Assembly (NCBI RefSeq): GCF_030814135.1
Contig: NZ_JAUSUQ010000008.1
Span: forward strand, 62,001-126,000
Source: Caldalkalibacillus uzonensis
GTDB taxonomy: Bacteria > Bacillota > Bacilli > Caldalkalibacillales > Caldalkalibacillaceae
Length of the DNA stretch: 64,000 nt
Direction of reading: 5' to 3'
Shown here: positions 33,422 through 41,378 of the stretch, piece by piece
Numbering within the stretch: the stretch's first letter is position 1
How the letters are laid out: each line of letters begins with the position of its first letter
Program-made: the position numbers and the translations under genes
The notes under the pieces: model-generated
The model's database searches: none
The model's input: only the letters and a program-made list of their open reading frames with translations
What the model was told of the DNA's origin: nothing

Positions 33422-34204
33422 TTACTCTCCCGCTGCACATTCTTCAAATAGATACAGAGTGTCAGACCTTAAGCCCAGTCTTAGGGTTTCTACAGAAATA
33501 ATGTCTCCAAAGGGGATATTGGCCAAATTAACGTTCGTTCCAAACTTCCTGATAAAGTAAGTTTGCAGCTGTTTGTTCGGAGCTTCAAAGATGAGGCGGT
33601 TTATATCCACATCCGCTTCAATCAGCTCCTCGATCAGACCATGTCTTAACTCTCCATTTTCTCTGCATATTCCGCTTGTTCCGCTTTCCCTTGCCTCGGT
33701 GATTACCATCGCTGCTCCTGCTTGTAAGTCCTCTTCGATATACTCAATCCACCTGGAAGGATGGAGCTCCCGGGATCGTTGCTGGTCCTTATATCCCACT
33801 TCACTGAAAACGGTGAACTCATGAGCAAAATCAGCAATGAAACTGGCTTTATCCCTGTTGCTCAGCGGAACCGTGCCATTTGAGATCTCAACATGCTGGC
33901 AGCCGTGCTGGAGGCAGAAATGATAATAATCCGTTACTTTTTTCTGCAGCAGGAACTTCTCAAACAAAGTTCCCCCAAAAAAGAAAGCCACGTTATTGAC
34001 TCTCAAACAGCCTATCTTTTCTTCAAGACAGTCGGAGACAAGGGAAGTTCCCCAGCCAAATTTGACAAAATCAATATAGCCGGCGTGGGTGCTGATGACG
34101 TCCTTGAAGTAACCGACAGGCATCCCCTTATCAATAACTATGGTTAACCCGCATGTTCTGGGTTTAGCTGGCCTGGGTGGCAAGGATAATGAATGCTGAT
34201 TCAT
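33422..34204 (-). CDS. Phosphosulfolactate synthase (ComA/YitD family)
   Basis: Adds sulfite to phosphoenolpyruvate to give phosphosulfolactate. The 260 residues show the ComA-type sequence GLTIVIDKGMPVGYF, DFVKFGWGTS, HVEISNGT and VITEARESGTSGI. In B. subtilis the homologue YitD belongs to the sporulation yitABCD group, where sulfolactate accumulates in spores; no partner genes lie here. AAGGAGTG at 34215-34222 fits ATG 34204; upstream ATGs at 34228 and 34252 are less likely. Confidence 0.85.
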   Translation of the reverse strand: MNQHSLSLPPRPAKPRTCGLTIVIDKGMPVGYFKDVISTHAGYIDFVKFGWGTSLVSDCLEEKIGCLRVNNVAFFFGGTLFEKFLLQKKVTDYYHFCLQHGCQHVEISNGTVPLSNRDKASFIADFAHEFTVFSEVGYKDQQRSRELHPSRWIEYIEEDLQAGAAMVITEARESGTSGICRENGELRHGLIEELIEADVDINRLIFEAPNKQLQTYFIRKFGTNVNLANIPFGDIISVETLRLGLRSDTLYLFEECAAGE

Positions 34205-34348
34205 AACAGATAAGCACTCCTTCCTGGGCATCTGCCCCATCTTAGCTAGCACATTTTATTCTGCTGGACAGCAAGTGGTTCCAGTTACAAACAGCATTTC
34301 AATCATGAAGTGACCAAAAAAATTGCACTCTTGAACTTACAAAATCTA

Positions 34349-34432
34349 TGTCAAATTATCTTACAGATTAGTTGCGACATAACGACTAAGATGTGAAAAT
34401 ATAACTAACGTTATATGTTAACTATATTTACG
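34349..34432 (+). promoter_or_regulatory. TnrA/GlnR-type sites upstream of amt
   Basis: TGTCAAATTATCTTACA (34349-34365) matches the TnrA/GlnR consensus TGTNA-N7-TNACA at every fixed base. TGTTA-N7-TTACG (34416-34432) matches with one mismatch. TTGCGA at 34372 with GAAAAT at 34395-34400 is a possible promoter with 17-base spacing. It would place the first site about 50 bases upstream of the start, the activating position for TnrA, and the second downstream of the start. Confidence 0.7.
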
Positions 34433-34492
34433 TTAAATGGGCGGTGCGACGTGTGCTGCTCATGTAAAACAAAGAAAGGAGTTGGATCGGAA

Positions 34493-35785
34493 ATGGGAGA
34501 GTTGTTTTACCTTAATGCACTGTGGGTGATGGTGGCCACGATTTTGGTCATCCTGATGCAAGGGGGATTTATTCTCCTTGAGGCAGGTTCAACGCGGATG
34601 AAAAATGCCGGCCATATCGCTGGCAAAACTATTTTTACATTCGGTATTGCCTCTCTTGTGTTTTGGGCTGTAGGTTATGGCTTTATTTATGGTCAAGGTA
34701 ATTTGTTTATCGGCTTTTCTGATTTCTTCTACGGCGATTTTACTTCTGTGGTTGATGGTTTGCCTGGTTCAATTGACTTTATGTTTCAACTAGCTTTTGC
34801 TGGGATTGCACTAACCATCGCTTTCGGCGGTTTTGCCGAGCGGGCCAAACTGTCGGTTTACATCTTATTTGCCATTTTCTTTTCAGCTTTTGTCTACCCG
34901 GTTGTAGCCCACTGGATTTGGGGAGACGGCTGGCTGGCAGGATTAGAAAAACAAGACTTTGCCGGCTCCACTGTGGTGCACTTGACAGGAGCTATGGCTG
35001 CACTGGCTGCCACCATACTGCTTAAACCGCGGATTGGTAAGTACAACAAAGATGGCACAGCGAACGATATGCATGGTCATAATCAGGTTTATACCGCTTT
35101 AGGTGTTCTGCTGCTCTGGGTAGGCTGGTTTGGTTTTAATGCAGGAAGCACATTAGGTGTTGATGAAGGATTTTTTGGGTTTGTCGCGCTGAACACCAAT
35201 CTTGCGGCGGCTGCCGGTGCCATCGCGGCCTTATCTACCGCCTGGATGCTTTCCGGCAAGGCGGATGTACCAACCGTGTTAAATGGCGCCTTGGCCGGAC
35301 TGGTGGCCATCACTGCCTCTTGTGCCTTTGTTGAACCGTGGGCAGCGGTGCTGATCGGACTGATAGCCGGTGTGATTGTCTATTACAGCATGAAGTTCTT
35401 TGATAAAGCCAAAATTGATGACCCCATCTTTGCTTTGTCAGTGCACGGTGTGGCTGGGGTGTGGGGCACCTTGTCCACAGGTTTCTTTGCCACGCCGGAA
35501 CTGGCTGCCATGAACGGCGGGTTGCCCGGGCTGTTGTACGGGGGAGGATTGACTCAGTTGGGTGTGCAAACATTGGGAGTTGTCTCAGCAGGACTGTATG
35601 CGTTTCTAACCTCTGTCATCCTGCTGCTGGTCATTAGAGCCGTTGTAGGATCGCTGCGCGTGACGGAAGAGGAAGAGTTACTGGGCTTGGATTTAAGTGA
35701 GCATGGCAGCTATGGGTATCCAGAGATGGTACAGCCGGCTGCCAATGCACAATTTGGTGTTCATGAGCCAGTTGTTAAAATATGA
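34493..35785 (+). CDS. amt: Ammonium transporter (Amt family)
   Basis: A 430-residue channel with about 11 TM helices conducting ammonium. It has the paired pore histidines His163 (VVHLTG) and His318 (SVHGVAG), and Asp155 in DFAGST at the binding site. No PII gene (glnK/nrgB) is adjacent, which is unusual for amt. AAAGGAGTT at 34476-34484 fits ATG 34493. The stop codon overlaps the ATG of the following nucleotidyltransferase gene (ATGA), the first link of a four-gene operon ending in glnA. Confidence 0.95.
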   Translation: MGELFYLNALWVMVATILVILMQGGFILLEAGSTRMKNAGHIAGKTIFTFGIASLVFWAVGYGFIYGQGNLFIGFSDFFYGDFTSVVDGLPGSIDFMFQLAFAGIALTIAFGGFAERAKLSVYILFAIFFSAFVYPVVAHWIWGDGWLAGLEKQDFAGSTVVHLTGAMAALAATILLKPRIGKYNKDGTANDMHGHNQVYTALGVLLLWVGWFGFNAGSTLGVDEGFFGFVALNTNLAAAAGAIAALSTAWMLSGKADVPTVLNGALAGLVAITASCAFVEPWAAVLIGLIAGVIVYYSMKFFDKAKIDDPIFALSVHGVAGVWGTLSTGFFATPELAAMNGGLPGLLYGGGLTQLGVQTLGVVSAGLYAFLTSVILLLVIRAVVGSLRVTEEEELLGLDLSEHGSYGYPEMVQPAANAQFGVHEPVVKI

Positions 35786-36645
35786 CCATATACTCAGCGC
35801 CGCCAGTCAGGCTATCACAGACAGAGGGTACTCCGCCGGCCGCTTTCACTTGGTTTTTGATGGGCAGCGCCGGCCGAGGAGAGCATCAGCCAGGAAGTGA
35901 CCAGGATCATGGCCTTGTTTATGATCAGGGGGGAGAAGAAGTCCAACAGTACTTTCTGGCACTTGGAAGGGAGATCAGCCGCCGTTTGGCAGACAGGGGA
36001 TACCCATTATGCATGGGGCATGTGATGAGTTCCATTCCAAGGTGGTGCCGCTCAAGGTCAGGCTGGCAGTCCCAACTGGAGCAGTGGCTAAGAGAAAAGC
36101 GGTGGGAAACCTTGCGCTATGTGTTGATTTTTATGGATGCCCGCCCACTTGTGGGGGACTCTCAGCTGGTCATTGATCTGAGAGAACGAGTGTACGGGTA
36201 CTGCGCAAAGGATCCTGCTATCTTGCTGCGTCTGTGGGAAAACACAGCATGGTTGAAGAAAGGAATGGGCCTATTCGGGCAATTTCTGACTGAGGAAAAA
36301 GGTCCTCATGCGGGGGCTATCAACCTAAAAGAAACAGGGTTGTTTCCATATATCAACGCCATACGCCTCCTGGCCATCAGAGAGAGTGTGCATGAAACCT
36401 CTACCGCCCTCCGCTTGGAACGTTTGTGTGCACTTGCTTCCTATGGGTGGCTGGAAACATACCAGGCTTACTTCAAGCGGCTCATGGCCTACCGCAAAAG
36501 AGCGGGGGTCACCAATCACCCTGACTACATCAGGGTGGCTGACCTCAGCCGGGAGGAGAAAAAAGAGTTGAAGCACCTGATAAGGAAAGGAGCTGAATTA
36601 TACCGGCGTACGGGACAATGGTTAAAGAGAGGGACCGTGTGGTGA
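35782..36645 (+). CDS. DUF294-type GlnD-like nucleotidyltransferase
   Basis: A 287-residue protein with the nucleotidyltransferase core MGSAGRGEHQPGSDQDHGLVYD at residues 27-48 (Gly28-Ser29, Asp40 and Asp42 as metal ligands), then a helical DUF294 C-terminal region (about 150-280). The motif is the same type as the uridylyltransferase domain of GlnD. DUF294 proteins usually carry cNMP-binding and CBS domains in front; these are absent, so only the catalytic part remains. The start overlaps the amt stop as ATGA; the stop overlaps the next start as GTGA. The target is unknown; the neighbourhood of amt and glnA suggests nitrogen control. Confidence 0.8.
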   Translation: MTIYSAPPVRLSQTEGTPPAAFTWFLMGSAGRGEHQPGSDQDHGLVYDQGGEEVQQYFLALGREISRRLADRGYPLCMGHVMSSIPRWCRSRSGWQSQLEQWLREKRWETLRYVLIFMDARPLVGDSQLVIDLRERVYGYCAKDPAILLRLWENTAWLKKGMGLFGQFLTEEKGPHAGAINLKETGLFPYINAIRLLAIRESVHETSTALRLERLCALASYGWLETYQAYFKRLMAYRKRAGVTNHPDYIRVADLSREEKKELKHLIRKGAELYRRTGQWLKRGTVW

Positions 36646-37418
36646 AGTTTCAAGCTGTTGCCCAGAGGATGAAACAATTGTCTGAAAGGGTGGGTTCACA
36701 TCTCTATGCCGCTCTCAGCAACAGAGAGAAGAGAGAGGTGTGGCCGCAAGCCAGCTTTTTACGCCAGCTTGAAAAGGAGCTGCGGGAGGAGAACTACTTG
36801 GAACGGCCCCTCAACGAACTGCCTGTGGTCGTCTTTGATGTGGAGACGACAGGATTTTTTCCTGAACAAGGGGATCGCATCCTGTCCATAGGAGCTGTGC
36901 GTGCCGTTGGCCAGCACATCCTGGAAGAGGATTCCCTGTACACATTGGTTCGCTCAGATGTATCCATTCCCAGAGAAGTGAGCCAATTGACCGGCATCAC
37001 GGAGGACGATCTTGCTTCTGCGCCAGCGCTAGCTGATGTACTGACTCAATTTTTCAATTTTATCGGCACGGATCTCCTTGCCGCCCATCATGCCGGGCAT
37101 GAGAAAGCCTTTATGCAGCAAGCGGTACGGGAGATTGGAGGCCGTTCCTTTCAACACCGTATTGTGGATACATCGTTTCTGGTTAGGGTTGTTGACCCCG
37201 GATTGAAGCAAAGTCAATTGGAAGTCTGCTGCTCCTTGTACAACATTAAGCCGGAAAACCGCCATCATGCCTTAGGTGATGCCCTGCTGGCGGCCAGGTT
37301 ATGGACCTGTTTAGTGCAGGATATGACCGCCAAAGGAATCAATACTTTACAAGACGCGTATCTGGCTTTAAGCCTTAATAAAAATAACTGTACAATTAAC
37401 AATTTGGGAGGGGATTAA
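36642..37418 (+). CDS. DEDDh 3'-5' exonuclease family protein
   Basis: A 258-residue protein with an N-terminal helical part (1-55) and a DnaQ/PolC-like exonuclease domain: Exo I FDVETTG (Asp66, Glu68), Exo III HHALGD (His209, Asp213). The Exo II position reads [10 protein letters not shown], where the usual Asp is Glu154. The GTG at 36642 overlaps the upstream stop (GTGA) with GAGAGGG before it; an ATG at 36618 is also in frame. It ends 1 base before glnA. Possible roles are nucleic-acid trimming or cleavage of a nucleotidyl-protein bond made by the preceding enzyme; the second is inference only. Confidence 0.8.
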
Positions 37419-37419
37419 A

Positions 37420-38754
37420 ATGGGAAAGTACACGAAAGAGGACATTTTAAAAATAGCTAAAGAAGAGGATGTGCGCTACATCCGGCTGCAATTTACCGAT
37501 CTGTTGGGAACCGTCAAAAATGTGGAGATACCCGTCAGCCAGTTGCCCAAAGCCCTTGATAACAAAATGATGTTTGATGGTTCCTCTATTGAAGGATTCG
37601 TGCGCATTGAAGAGTCTGATATGTATCTCTATCCTGATCTGGATACATGGCTCATCTTCCCGTGGGAACTTGAAGAAGGCAAAGTGGCCCGTTTGATTTG
37701 TGATGTATATAATCCAGACGGAACGCCGTTTGCCGGAGATCCGCGGGGTGTCTTGAAGCGGATGCTGAAAGAGGCAGAAACGCTAGGCTTTACGGCCATG
37801 AACGTCGGGCCTGAACCGGAGTTCTTCCTGTTTAAGCTAGATGAAAAAGGCGATGCAACATTGGAAGTGAATGATCAAGGCGGTTATTTTGATCTGGCTC
37901 CCACCGATTTAGGTGAAAATTGCCGCCGGGATATTGTGCTCACCCTGGAAAAAATGGGCTTTGAAATTGAAGCCTCCCACCATGAAGTGGCCCCGGGACA
38001 GCATGAGATTGACTTTAAATATGCCAATGCTGTCACTGCAGCCGATTATATCCAAACCTTTAAAGTGGTAGTGAAAAACGTAGCTAAACAACACGGATTG
38101 CACGCCACGTTTATGCCCAAACCGCTGTTTGGGGTAAACGGATCAGGCATGCACTGTCACCAATCCCTGTTCAGGGGAGAGGAGAATGCCTTCTACGATG
38201 AACAGGATGAACTGGGCCTTAGTGACACCGCCAAACAATATTTGGCCGGCATTCTGCATCACGCCAGAGCCATGGCCGCCATTACAAATCCAACTGTCAA
38301 CTCTTACAAACGTTTAGTGCCTGGCTATGAAGCTCCTTGCTACGTAGCCTGGTCGGCCAAAAACAGAAGCCCGCTGGTCCGAGTGCCGGCATCACGTGGT
38401 TTAAGCACGCGCATTGAATTGCGCAATCCGGACCCGTCTGCCAATCCGTATCTGGCCCTGGCCGTCATGCTGGCTGCTGGATTGGATGGTATCAAGAAAA
38501 AGCTGCCTCTGGTTCCGCCGACTAATCAAAATATCTATACCATGACAGAAGAGGAGCGCAAGGAAAACCGCATTGACAGTCTGCCATCCACGTTAAAAGA
38601 AGCGATTGAAGAGTTGAAACAAAATGAGGTGCTTAAAAAAGCGCTAGGTGAGCATGTTCTCGCTCACTTCATCGAAGCCAAAGAAATTGAATGGGATATG
38701 TTCAGAACCCAGGTGCATCCCTGGGAGCGCGACCAGTATCTCACCGCTTATTGA
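37420..38754 (+). CDS. glnA: Glutamine synthetase type I
   Basis: Joins ammonium to glutamate with ATP. The 444 residues match the Bacillus GSI-alpha type (no adenylylation-site Tyr segment of GSI-beta): [22 protein letters not shown], the GPEPEFFLF and [16 protein letters not shown] metal-site segments, and [21 protein letters not shown] at the end of the exonuclease gene serves the ATG 1 base after that stop. There is no glnR beside it; instead it is the last gene of the amt operon. Confidence 0.97.
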
Positions 38755-38773
38755 GAACCAAAGAGTATAAAGG

Positions 38774-38810
38774 AAAGCTGTCCCCATCGCTTGGGACAGC
38801 TTTTCTGTTT
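38774..38810 (+). terminator. Rho-independent terminator after glnA
   Basis: AAAGCTGTCCC and GGGACAGCTTTT form an 11-bp perfect stem with an 8-base loop, ending in TTTTCTGTTT. Confidence 0.9.
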
Positions 38811-38815
38811 GAAAA

Positions 38816-39775
38816 TTAACGGATTCCCCAATTCTCTAGCTGCTGGGTTGAGCCAATCCAGACGGGAGTGTGCTCCGGCAACAGCTCATACAAGTATTCC
38901 ACATCATGATTGTGCATGCGCACACATCCCAGTGAAGCATACGTCCCAATGCTGGCCGGATTATTGGTGCCATGAATGCCGTAAGTGCCTCCTCCCCCAA
39001 TATCAAGACCCAACCAGCGGGATCCCAGCGGGTTGTCAGGATGACCGCCAGCGACAGGAGGGGCAATGCCAGCCCCGCCCCAGGCCGGGTCAATGGCTTT
39101 GAAGACAATCTTAAATTGTCCTTCCGGAGTAAGAGAAGCATTTTTTCCTGAGGCGACAGGATAATCGGCGATCGCTCTTTCACCCTGGAACAAAAGCAGG
39201 CGGTTAGTGGACTTGTTGACCGCCACCCAGTAGCCTTGAGTAGGAGGATGAGCCGCCTTAATTCCTACCGGCTCAGTGATCCCCTGTTGATTTAAGGCGT
39301 GGTTCAGTTTCTCTGCCGTTGCTTTGTCCAAGCGTCCGCTGACCGGAAGCCCGTGATCCTCCTGAAAGACCAGCAGCTTTTGTTGGGTTTGTGGTCCAAA
39401 GATCCCATCTTGGACCAGTTCATAGCCGAGTAAACCCAATGCCTGCTGTAAATCGTTTACTCTTAACCCTCTGTCTCCTTGACTGATTTCACCGGAGAAC
39501 AAAAATAAACTTAAGTAATTCTCCTCTTTTGCTCGAGTTTGATGATGCTGTTCCTTCCAGTTCTCCAGAGCGGTAAGCCACTCCTGTTCTTTTGCGTGCA
39601 CATAGCGACGGAATAATGGCTCATCTTCCTCTACTGAGAGTTGCAAGTTCAAAACGAGTTGTGCTTGCTGAAGTTGGAATTGAATGACCTCAGGATTCTT
39701 TTCAGCCCTGGTTATACCCGGGATAAAAAGAAGCAACCCCAAACAAACGATTAGAAACGATCCTCGCTTATTCAT
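38816..39775 (-). CDS. L,D-transpeptidase (YkuD) with peptidoglycan-binding domain
   Basis: A secreted 319-residue cell-wall enzyme: signal peptide (MNKRGSFLIVCLGLLLFIPG), a helical linker, a PG_binding_1 repeat (GDRGLRVNDLQQALGLLGYE, about 98-160) and a YkuD domain with the catalytic HGTNN and SLGCVRM motif (nucleophile Cys near 294). It cross-links peptidoglycan by L,D bonds. AAGGGAG with a 9-base spacer fits ATG 39775; an ATG at 39820 is in frame but weaker. It converges on glnA. Confidence 0.9.
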   Translation of the reverse strand: MNKRGSFLIVCLGLLLFIPGITRAEKNPEVIQFQLQQAQLVLNLQLSVEEDEPLFRRYVHAKEQEWLTALENWKEQHHQTRAKEENYLSLFLFSGEISQGDRGLRVNDLQQALGLLGYELVQDGIFGPQTQQKLLVFQEDHGLPVSGRLDKATAEKLNHALNQQGITEPVGIKAAHPPTQGYWVAVNKSTNRLLLFQGERAIADYPVASGKNASLTPEGQFKIVFKAIDPAWGGAGIAPPVAGGHPDNPLGSRWLGLDIGGGGTYGIHGTNNPASIGTYASLGCVRMHNHDVEYLYELLPEHTPVWIGSTQQLENWGIR

Positions 39776-40005
39776 CACATGCACTCCCTTAGTAACCTTT
39801 AGACAGATATGATTTATCATATTAAGCAGCGGTTTAGATGGCTACTAAAGATCATATGTGCATAGACCTGTATTATTACATAAATTGGTAGAGTTGTCCA
39901 AGTAAGGTAAGAGGGTAAAAGGACATAAAAAATAACTGGGACATACAAGGACAATGACTGCCGCTCATATAGATAGGTTATAAGACAGCATGGGAGGTGG
40001 AGGCT

Positions 40006-40725
40006 TTGGCGGGTATTTTCTCAACCATCGCCTTATTGATTAAGGAATTGATGGTTTTTGTTTCATATGTCAAAAACAATGCCTTTCCACAGCCTTTGAG
40101 TGAGAAAGAAGAAGAGAAGTATTTAAAGCGGATGCAGGAAGGTGACCAAGAAGCCCGCAATTTGCTCATCGAACATAATCTAAGATTAGTTGCCCACATC
40201 GTCAAAAAATTTGAAAATACTGGCGAGGATACGGAAGATCTGATATCCATAGGCACCATCGGTTTGATCAAAGGCGTTGAAAGCTACTCACCAGATAAAG
40301 GAACCAAGCTGGCCACCTATGCTGCCAGGTGTATCGAAAATGAGATTCTGATGCATTTAAGGTCCTTAAAAAAGACAAAAAAAGATGTGTCTCTTCATGA
40401 TCCCATCGGAACTGATAAAGAAGGGAATGAAATTACGTTGATAGATGTCTTAAAAGCAGACATAGAGGATGTTTTGGACGAAGTACAGTTGCAAATGGAG
40501 AAAGACAAAATCTATCAATACATTCATGTGCTCGATGACCGGGAGAAAGAGGTGATTATTGGCCGGTTTGGCCTGGATATGGAGGAGGAGAAAACCCAGC
40601 GTGAATTAGCCAAAGAGCTAGGCATTTCCCGTTCGTATGTGTCGCGGATTGAAAAGCGGGCCTTGATGAAATTGTTTCATGAATTTTATAGAGCCAAAAA
40701 ACATTCGGGGCAAAACAGAGGCTGA
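40006..40725 (+). CDS. sigK: RNA polymerase sigma-K factor (mother-cell sporulation)
   Basis: A 239-residue protein very close to B. subtilis pro-sigma-K over the whole length. A hydrophobic pro-sequence (about 1-20, [24 protein letters not shown]) is followed by region 2 ([21 protein letters not shown]) and region 4 ([16 protein letters not shown]). The gene is continuous, with no skin-type insertion. TTG 40006 has GGAGG 8 bases upstream and gives a pro-sequence of normal length; GTG 39997 is an alternative. Controls late mother-cell genes after processing. Confidence 0.94.
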
Positions 40726-40746
40726 ACTTGGGCCTCTTTTATAAAA
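40717..40746 (+). terminator. Short hairpin terminator after sigK
   Basis: AGAGGC and GCCTCT form a 6-bp stem overlapping the sigK stop, followed by TTTTATAAAATATTT. Confidence 0.65.
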
Positions 40747-40862
40747 TATTTACAAAGATTAAAACCATGCTCTGTGTTAATTGGTAACGAGCAAGGTTGC
40801 CGCTTAAAACTCACCTTGCCCAGAAAAAATACGAAGCAGGTATGAAATAATATCATTCTTCA

Positions 40863-40897
40863 AGTGGATATTATTTCCACTGGGTATATGCTATGAT
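40863..40897 (+). promoter_or_regulatory. Promoter and inverted repeat before the LuxR-type gene
   Basis: TGCTATGAT (extended -10, TATGAT at 40892-40897) is preceded by the inverted repeat AGTGGA-N7-TCCACT at 40864-40882, which covers the -35 region. It is a candidate operator. Confidence 0.5.
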
Positions 40898-40950
40898 AAT
40901 GGGAAGTTTCAAAAGGAGTTAGCTGGGTTGTTGGAAAGGGGAGAGGAATT

Positions 40951-41378
40951 TTGCAGGTCGTCACAACAATACACCTGAATGAGAAAGAACGGGCCCTCAT
41001 CCGTTTTGCCTTAGAGCATACCTTGCGTTATGCCGAGATTGACGAACAGGTCAAAAAATATAAGCAAGGTTTAGCTGAATTGCTGACCAACTTCAAACAA
41101 GCGGAACCTTTGATTCGAGGGCGGGGAGCATCTCTGTTTTTAGACACTGTTAAAAAAAACTAACTAACAGGGAATACCAGATTTTCCTGAAAATCTTAAA
41201 GGGTATGACCAATGAGGAGATCGCCCAGCATTTATACATATCGCAGCATACAGTTAAAACCCACATTCAACGGATTTACAAAAAGTTGGGTGTTCAAAAC
41301 CGGACAGAGCTGATCGTCGCATATTTTAAGGGGAGAGAACATGAACAGAGTGGTAATAACGAGTGCAGTAACAGATGA
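40951..41378 (+). CDS. LuxR-type HTH regulator interrupted by a -1 frame change
   Basis: The zero frame (TTG 40951, GGGGAG upstream) gives 70 residues ending DTVKKN and stops at TAA 41161-41163. In the -1 frame the sequence continues without a gap as LTNREYQIF, GMTNEEIAQHL, ISQHTVKTHI and YKKLGVQNRTEL, a complete GerE/LuxR DNA-binding domain, to TGA 41376-41378. The junction is A-AAA-AAC (41154-41160), a canonical -1 slippery heptamer inside a run of eight As and directly before the zero-frame stop. A slip would give about 142 residues. The alternatives are a recent frameshift mutation or a homopolymer read error. The 3' end overlaps the HD-GYP-like gene by 38 bases. Confidence 0.75.

Follow-up and report, generated by a model that had tools for sequence, protein, structure and literature searches.

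A nitrogen-boxed amt–DUF294–exonuclease operon recurring across Bacilli and its possible part in the control of ammonium uptake

We analyzed a 64,000-nucleotide stretch of Caldalkalibacillus uzonensis (contig NZ_JAUSUQ010000008.1, positions 62,001 to 126,000), hereafter the window, in which one operon joins the genes of an ammonium transporter (amt), a DUF294 nucleotidyltransferase, a DEDDh exonuclease and a glutamine synthetase (glnA). Judged from sequence, the conserved unit is made up of the first three genes and is a real, nitrogen-regulated module. Our reading, to which we give a probability of roughly 0.4, is that a GlnE-like transferase modifies Amt (or GlnA) and that the DEDDh enzyme reverses the modification, in the place held elsewhere by a PII protein. 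The computed basis of this reading is the gene order, its recurrence, a nitrogen-control box, near-exclusion with PII, conserved active sites, and a predicted fold like those of GlnE and DrrA. From these we infer that a nucleotide would be transferred, that its target would be a protein, that the DEDDh enzyme would remove it, and that transport would be affected. The features of the locus are as follows.

34349–34365, + strand: perfect GlnR/TnrA box TGTCAAATTATCTTACA ahead of amt (0 mismatches)
34416–34432, + strand: second GlnR/TnrA-like box (one mismatch)
34493–35785, + strand: amt, ammonium transporter of the DUF294-linked Amt clade, 430 residues, C-terminal tail EHGSYGYPE (domain searches; start from AAAGGAG)
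35766–35820, + strand: deletion scar covering the end of the Amt tail and the DUF294 start (comparison with both copies of a same-genus relative)
35782–36645, + strand: DUF294 nucleotidyltransferase, 287 residues, catalytic core and DUF294_C helical domain, without the N-terminal helices
36642–37418, + strand: DEDDh exonuclease of the PRK07740 type, GTG start over the DUF294 stop (or ATG at 36618)
37420–38754, + strand: glnA, type I glutamine synthetase, 444 residues, one of two in the genome (domain searches)
38774–38803, listed on the − strand by the scan: inverted repeat of 11 pairs, terminator-like, 3' of glnA

A first-pass annotation made from the letters alone had given the same four genes in this order and place, and open reading frames (ORFs) and domain searches agree with it. 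The Amt protein scored 408.9 bits against TIGR00836 (cut-off 343.3) and GlnA 610.7 bits against TIGR00653 (cut-off 429.15). The DUF294 protein passed the cut-offs of both PF03445 (105.6 bits; cut-off 21), which it matched only from profile position 38 onward, and PF10335 (78 bits; cut-off 22.5). It carries the nucleotidyltransferase core motif GSAGRGEHQPGSDQD and, as had been claimed, shows no sensor domain in a Pfam search. The exonuclease scored 84.2 bits against PF00929 (cut-off 24) and 277.5 bits against NF005836/PRK07740 (cut-off 261). The likely start of amt is the ATG at 34493, behind AAAGGAG, rather than 34415. The coordinates bear out all the tight junctions described earlier: amt (stop TGA 35783–35785) and the DUF294 gene (start ATG 35782) overlap in ATGA, the DUF294 gene (stop TGA 36643–36645) and the exonuclease gene (likely start GTG 36642, alternative in-frame ATG 36618) overlap in GTGA, and a single base separates the end of the exonuclease stop at 37418 from the glnA start at 37420. 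The terminator that was said to close the operon is plausible rather than proven, as the inverted repeat is present but terminator-like on the − strand only; terminator-like sites are not enriched in the region (6 found, shuffle mean 5.0).

We investigated how far this arrangement recurs. A scan of named genomes, whose search motifs cover some of the active-site residues, gave 156 relatives, of which the best 80 loci were kept. When 398 Bacilli genomes were searched with a profile, 164 had DUF294 matches, and from these 34 loci (L132–L145 and L149–L168) were picked by hand. Among these 114 loci, the order amt–DUF294–exonuclease on one strand was found in 110. The exceptions were L060, without an exonuclease (tblastn); L166, on a short contig with Amt on the other side; L168, with an extra ORF between the genes; and L167, in which DUF294 was not called as an ORF but was found by tblastn. 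A further 20 hand-picked short-form loci were examined; the exonuclease adjoins DUF294 in 18, and Amt is a same-strand neighbor of the pair in 14 (on the exonuclease side in L276), lies 3–4 kb off in 3 and was not seen in 3 (two near contig ends). Both hand-picked sets leave out the long form with CBS domains. The survey proposed by the first-pass annotation thus found the pair beside amt across Bacilli, not in one strain only. The short form was not seen outside the class Bacilli among matches at an expectation value (E) of 1e-40 in a phylum sample, in which 56 of 388 genomes matched and the matches from other classes were open frames of at least 489 codons. DUF294 matches were present in 61 plasmid records, and the best place in each was below 60% identity.

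As had been stated, no PII gene lies beside amt, and no PII match was found in the whole window genome (the control was positive in 13 of 14 genomes). An Amt-centered count in the 398 Bacilli genomes used the best 150 places listed for each of Amt and DUF294 and 109 PII places, and PII matches weaker than about E 1e-14 were left out. Within 2.5 kb of these 150 Amts, the partner was DUF294 in 38 cases, PII in 37 and both in 1, and neither was listed in 74, a figure that is an upper bound. A strong PII match was present in 5 of the 38 genomes with a DUF294-linked Amt, compared with 57 of the 99 without (Fisher, p = 2e-6, kinship ignored). In G343, G137 and G083, which have both a DUF294-linked Amt and PII, the PII gene adjoins another Amt gene.

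A quick-search tree of 101 Amt rows placed 59 of the 61 DUF294-linked rows in one clade of 67 (Shimodaira–Hasegawa-like approximate likelihood ratio test, 99); the two outside it come from L191 and L195, which are linked to glnA, and they sit on the other main Amt branch. One row labelled as other, L206, in fact has DUF294–exonuclease–Amt. The tail residues G408, Y409, P410 and E411 are invariant in the 59 DUF294-linked Amts of the clade, and Y407 is present in 55. PII-linked Amts have alanine at 408 in 23 of 23. The tail motif is altered in the clade members L200 and L208, from genomes without a DUF294 match.

Nitrogen control of the operon is suggested by the box ahead of its first gene. For the GlnR/TnrA box we take the consensus to be TGTNAN7TNACA. 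When the stretch from −300 to +60 around each called start was searched, a perfect box turned up at amt in 99 of 112 loci and at 28 of the 895 other ORFs in these loci (2 of the 114 loci were dropped). On this basis, the window operon is predicted to be under GlnR/TnrA control. The second box is weak on its own because, once a single mismatch is allowed, the window holds 33 matches where chance would give 25.9. A perfect match also stands inside the amt coding region (35371–35387); it may be due to chance, since each strand of the genome holds 78 such matches and the reversed pattern reaches 59.

The first-pass annotation had drawn on the lack of a glnR gene beside the window glnA. The observation is true, yet the inference from it fails. 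We considered the missing glnR as evidence against GlnR control and rejected it, because a perfect box precedes amt and is conserved in relatives, so that the missing neighbor argues nothing. The window genome has two glnA genes, and the second follows a MerR-family gene, called glnR-like from its place, for which all NCBIfam matches were below the cut-off. A perfect GlnR/TnrA box is found at C1:146192, just ahead of this glnR-like gene and the second glnA. Of 113 related loci, 43 have a gene with a BLAST match to this glnR-like protein no more than 4 kb away, and two of three MerR genes beside the operon or the pair scored above the TnrA-family cut-off (those of L144 and L019; that of L136, 79 residues long, did not).

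A PDB sequence search with a full-length DUF294 protein (L021) found nothing at E 1, and a fold search was therefore done, with a model of the full-length relative L052 rather than the window protein. The AlphaFold2 model of L052 (alignment of 47 sequences) had a predicted local distance difference test score (pLDDT) of 95.9. By Foldseek and VIA-align, its best matches were the GlnE adenylylation domain 3k7d (Z 23.5, 289 aligned), the GlnE N-terminal domain 1v4a (Z 23.4, 295 aligned) and DrrA 6yx5 (Z 23.1, 294 aligned). These were followed by a DrrA fragment (Z 11.4) and then by aminoglycoside nucleotidyltransferases (about 10). The model of L052 thus has a predicted GlnE fold. GlnE and DrrA AMPylate tyrosines. 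A passage of PMC3710099 groups the helical domains of GlnD/GlnE and DUF294_C together and lists DrrA there.

The GlnD/GlnE-type function proposed in the first-pass annotation is therefore plausible, since the predicted fold of L052 matches both GlnE domains end to end; the fold listing contains no GlnD structure and does not separate GlnE-like from GlnD-like. The family shares with GlnE the core G-S..R.E....D.D. However, GlnE is a tandem of adenylylase and removase halves, whereas DUF294 is one unit (287 residues in the window), and removal, which in GlnE is done by its own half, would here fall to a separate DEDDh enzyme. The window protein has no PF03710 match (E 0.01), and L052 has no match to the GlnE Pfam family. 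With GlnD it shares the broad nucleotidyltransferase type, as had been held, but the window protein lacks GlnD_UR_UTase, HD and ACT matches (Pfam, E 0.01), and its genome offers no PII as a substrate. The nucleotidyltransferase residues G28, S29, R32, E34, D40, D42 and D119 are conserved in 118 of 118 proteins. Because the named loci were found with active-site motifs, conservation was also calculated for the 37 loci found by protein or profile search instead, and it was 37 of 37.

In the exonucleases, the DEDDh residues D74, E76, H216 and D221 are present in 117–118 of 118 proteins. At position 162, 101 of them have Glu and 16 have Asp (in the window E162, 37101–37103, counted from the ATG at 36618); the symporter-linked paralogue of the window genome has Asp at the corresponding position. 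By score and residues, the window protein is a predicted nuclease of the DEDDh (PRK07740/NF005836) type. Passages of PMC6390093 and PMC6768110 describe that DEDD-family oligoribonucleases can cleave an aryl ester of thymidine monophosphate, which in PMC6390093 is the p-nitrophenyl ester and the enzyme a DEDDh oligoribonuclease. By analogy, this aryl ester may be regarded as chemically close to a tyrosyl–nucleotide bond, and removal of a nucleotide by a DEDDh enzyme appears chemically plausible.

The pair is not confined to amt. The window genome has a second pair (L015), composed of an SSF sodium:solute symporter (PF00474), a DUF294 protein of 654 residues, in which a cNMP-binding and two CBS domains accompany DUF294 and DUF294_C, and an exonuclease of 219 residues; we call the symporter ActP-like, which is our own naming. 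In 19 long-form loci, the exonuclease adjoins in 10 and a symporter like that of L015 lies within about 3 kb in 10. The text of PMC9927547 on Pseudomonas putida KT2440 reports that the exonuclease gene pp_0353 and the CBS-domain protein gene pp_0354 form an operon, and that their homologues adjoin actP in some other Pseudomonas. The recurring transporter-linked module suspected earlier is thus seen beside Amt across Bacilli, beside the PF00474 symporter in the window genome, and near actP in some Pseudomonas according to that text. The pp_0354/pp_0353 pair resembles ours in having a transferase gene followed by an exonuclease gene, transporter-linked in some genomes; the L015 protein of this type has cNMP-binding and CBS sensor domains, whereas the Amt-linked form has none. 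In the same text, growth on pyruvate was impaired by deletion of pp_0353 or actP-I but not of pp_0354, and none of the three deletions caused a defect on 20 mM acetate. This difference between pp_0353 and pp_0354 is expected if the exonuclease undoes the effect of the transferase on the transporter. The authors call the mechanism unclear; they offer mRNA decay by pp_0353 as a speculation and leave room for other mechanisms. A passage of PMC5715377 predicts that Pflu5625 of P. fluorescens (cAMP-binding, CBS and nucleotidyltransferase domains) nucleotidylates, and its mutant was without a phenotype.

The first-pass annotation considered the module not described for this group. This is right only in part, because the operon is already known in outline from footnote d of Table 1 in PMC3412718, where amtB is apparently in an operon with a DUF294 gene and dnaQ in Anoxybacillus/Geobacillus. 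The three genes and the bacterial class are those of the window. The footnote gives no function and draws no link to PII exclusion or to a GlnE fold, and the terminal glnA was seen only in the genus of the window. Among open-licence PMC papers, PMC3412718 was the only one found to name both DUF294 and amtB, and none was found that joins DUF294 with exonuclease and nucleotidyltransferase. The class-wide spread, the near-exclusion with PII and the GlnE-like fold go beyond that footnote.

These observations can be placed in a mechanism. The GlnE-like nucleotidyltransferase and a DEDDh phosphodiesterase would occupy the place that the PII protein GlnK has at other Amts. The DUF294 enzyme would attach adenosine or uridine monophosphate (AMP or UMP) to a protein of ammonium uptake, with the cytosolic side of Amt or its C-terminal tail as the first choice. 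The nucleotide on Amt would close or tune the channel, and the DEDDh enzyme would hydrolyse the nucleotide–protein ester so that the channel reopens. As in amtB–glnK operons, an Amt and a regulator would be combined in one nitrogen-controlled operon; there the regulator is a PII gene, and here a nucleotidyltransferase and a nuclease stand in its place. Actinobacterial amtB–glnK–glnD operons exist as well.

No strong PII was found in 75 of the 137 Bacilli genomes with a listed Amt, and a nitrogen-boxed two-enzyme Amt partner would be a concrete candidate for preventing futile ammonium cycling in PII-less Bacilli. If the reading is true, a DEDDh enzyme that strips nucleotides from proteins would have an enzymatic role that is new. 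The reading also predicts the same working for DUF294–exonuclease pairs beside acetate-type symporters, and it could account for the phenotype of the P. putida exonuclease mutant. The wider form of the proposal is doubtful: that PII-free Bacilli control uptake through a GlnE-like enzyme that nucleotidylylates the channel and a DEDDh enzyme that de-nucleotidylylates it, and that the CBS/cNMP pair governs acetate/pyruvate symporters elsewhere.

Several points weigh against modification of Amt by this pair. We know of no DEDD nuclease that acts as a protein de-AMPylase. In the window, the writer lacks its N-terminal helices and is perhaps weak or inactive, and it seems dispensable locally because the window copy is truncated and one copy of the same-genus relative G001 is frame-split. 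The PII exclusion partly reflects shared ancestry, since the tree needs only 14 label changes, and 74 of the 150 Amts have neither partner listed. Y407 is replaced by Ser or Phe in four DUF294-linked Amts (L155, L163, L168 and L194), and the tail motif persists in clade Amts of genomes without a DUF294 match (L197, L202, L204 and L205). For these two reasons the Amt tail is a clade mark and not a proven modification site, and Y407 (replaced in 4 of 59) was rejected as proof of such a site. Sections 7 and 8 of PMC9927547 report no double mutant, and the exonuclease could act alone.

The state of the window transferase needs to be considered here. The window is without about 106 nucleotides at the Amt/DUF294 junction and a further 11 nucleotides, all of which are present in the two G001 copies (L011 and L012). 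As this loss removed the N-terminal helices, the short DUF294 of the window is a scar. The first-pass annotation had treated the short DUF294 form as a type; we rejected it as a distinct family, because the shortness is a local deletion and the proteins called in 113 related loci have 303–404 residues as against 287 here. The intact N-terminal helical part is absent from the window protein and present in relatives (L052 matches PF03445 from position 8). Residues 4–13 of the window protein resemble frame-shifted relics. The His of the N-terminal LNxFHD motif occurs in 115 of 118 proteins and is lost in the window and in L011. All four genes are present in the copy L012, but its DUF294 is broken into two frames; L011 has an unsplit DUF294 and is cut off within the operon where the contig stops. 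The ratio of nonsynonymous to synonymous distance (dN/dS) of the DUF294 core between the window and L011 is 0.20, so that the remaining core appears to be under purifying selection. By alignment, all catalytic residues are kept, and the truncated protein was modelled at pLDDT 91.4, with a mean confidence of 71 at residues 31–40 (part of the active-site loop) against 95–97 for the matching blocks of L052. The window nucleotidyltransferase may be weak or dead, while its exonuclease, Amt channel and GlnA look intact from their sequences.

This raises the possibility of decay, in which the transferase of this strain is a non-functional remnant and only amt, the exonuclease and glnA matter. The deleted helices, the relic, the lost His, the low confidence at residues 31–40 and the split C5 copy of the relative all speak for it, whereas the catalytic residues, the dN/dS of the core and the confident model of the truncated protein do not, and we regard decay as unlikely. 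Also unlikely is that the same writer and eraser chemistry acts on glutamine synthetase, as GlnE does, with amt merely a co-regulated neighbor. The best fold matches are indeed both GlnE domains, and glnA is the last gene of the operon both in the window and in one same-genus copy. It also stands beside DUF294–exonuclease pairs in L191, L195 and L224, and in L088 and L090 it lies upstream at a distance of some 4.4 kb. However, just 2 of 113 loci have a glnA gene no more than 5 kb away, while Amt adjoins in nearly all, so that glnA cannot be counted as part of a conserved unit, its order being seen only in the genus of the window. The SSF-symporter pairs L015, L225 and L227 have no glnA called in the examined stretch, and to our knowledge Bacillus GlnA is controlled by feedback inhibition and GlnR/TnrA, not by adenylylation.

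The remaining explanations take the target away from proteins. It is quite improbable that the pair works on RNA, with the transferase adding nucleotides to a transcript or tRNA at its 3' end and the exonuclease cutting them back, which would let the operon tune its own message. The nearest solved sequence relatives of the exonuclease are mostly DNA polymerase III proofreading enzymes, and mRNA degradation by pp_0353 is the speculation of the PMC9927547 text; but the fold matches to TUTases had E 0.3 or worse and template modelling scores of about 0.2, far below GlnE and DrrA, and the P. putida phenotypes of the DUF294 and exonuclease deletions differ in that same text. Those differing single-mutant phenotypes would also fit a small nucleotide signal made by the transferase and degraded by an oligoribonuclease-like exonuclease. 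A weak fold likeness to CD-NTase second-messenger synthases (E 0.1 or worse) points the same way, but protein AMPylases match far better and over the full length, which leaves such a signal very improbable.

Some further observations concern the surroundings of the operon and its relatives. A phosphosulfolactate synthase gene (ComA, PF02679; 33422–34252) lies upstream of amt and divergent from it, and ComA remnants or copies occupy the same place in the same-genus relative. G001 carries two copies of the amt–DUF294 region, and its C78 contig starts with an ORF that is transposase-like as named from sequence reading. Between window positions 33600–41000 and L012, there are stretches of about 97% identity, with a synonymous distance (dS) of 0.03–0.13 in amt, the exonuclease and glnA; the identity falls to 73–86% at 35550–36300, which spans the last part of Amt and the core of the nucleotidyltransferase. 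In the second pair, the symporter gene has a dS of 1.5 between the window genome and the same-genus relative, and compared with this value the low dS of the block makes a recent interspecies exchange of the block likely. In L224, a long DUF294 protein and an exonuclease lie divergent beside a glnA gene, another link between the pair and glutamine synthetase. In L195, a second exonuclease of the same kind (1–639) is present at the edge of the locus that holds glnA, DUF294, exonuclease and amt.

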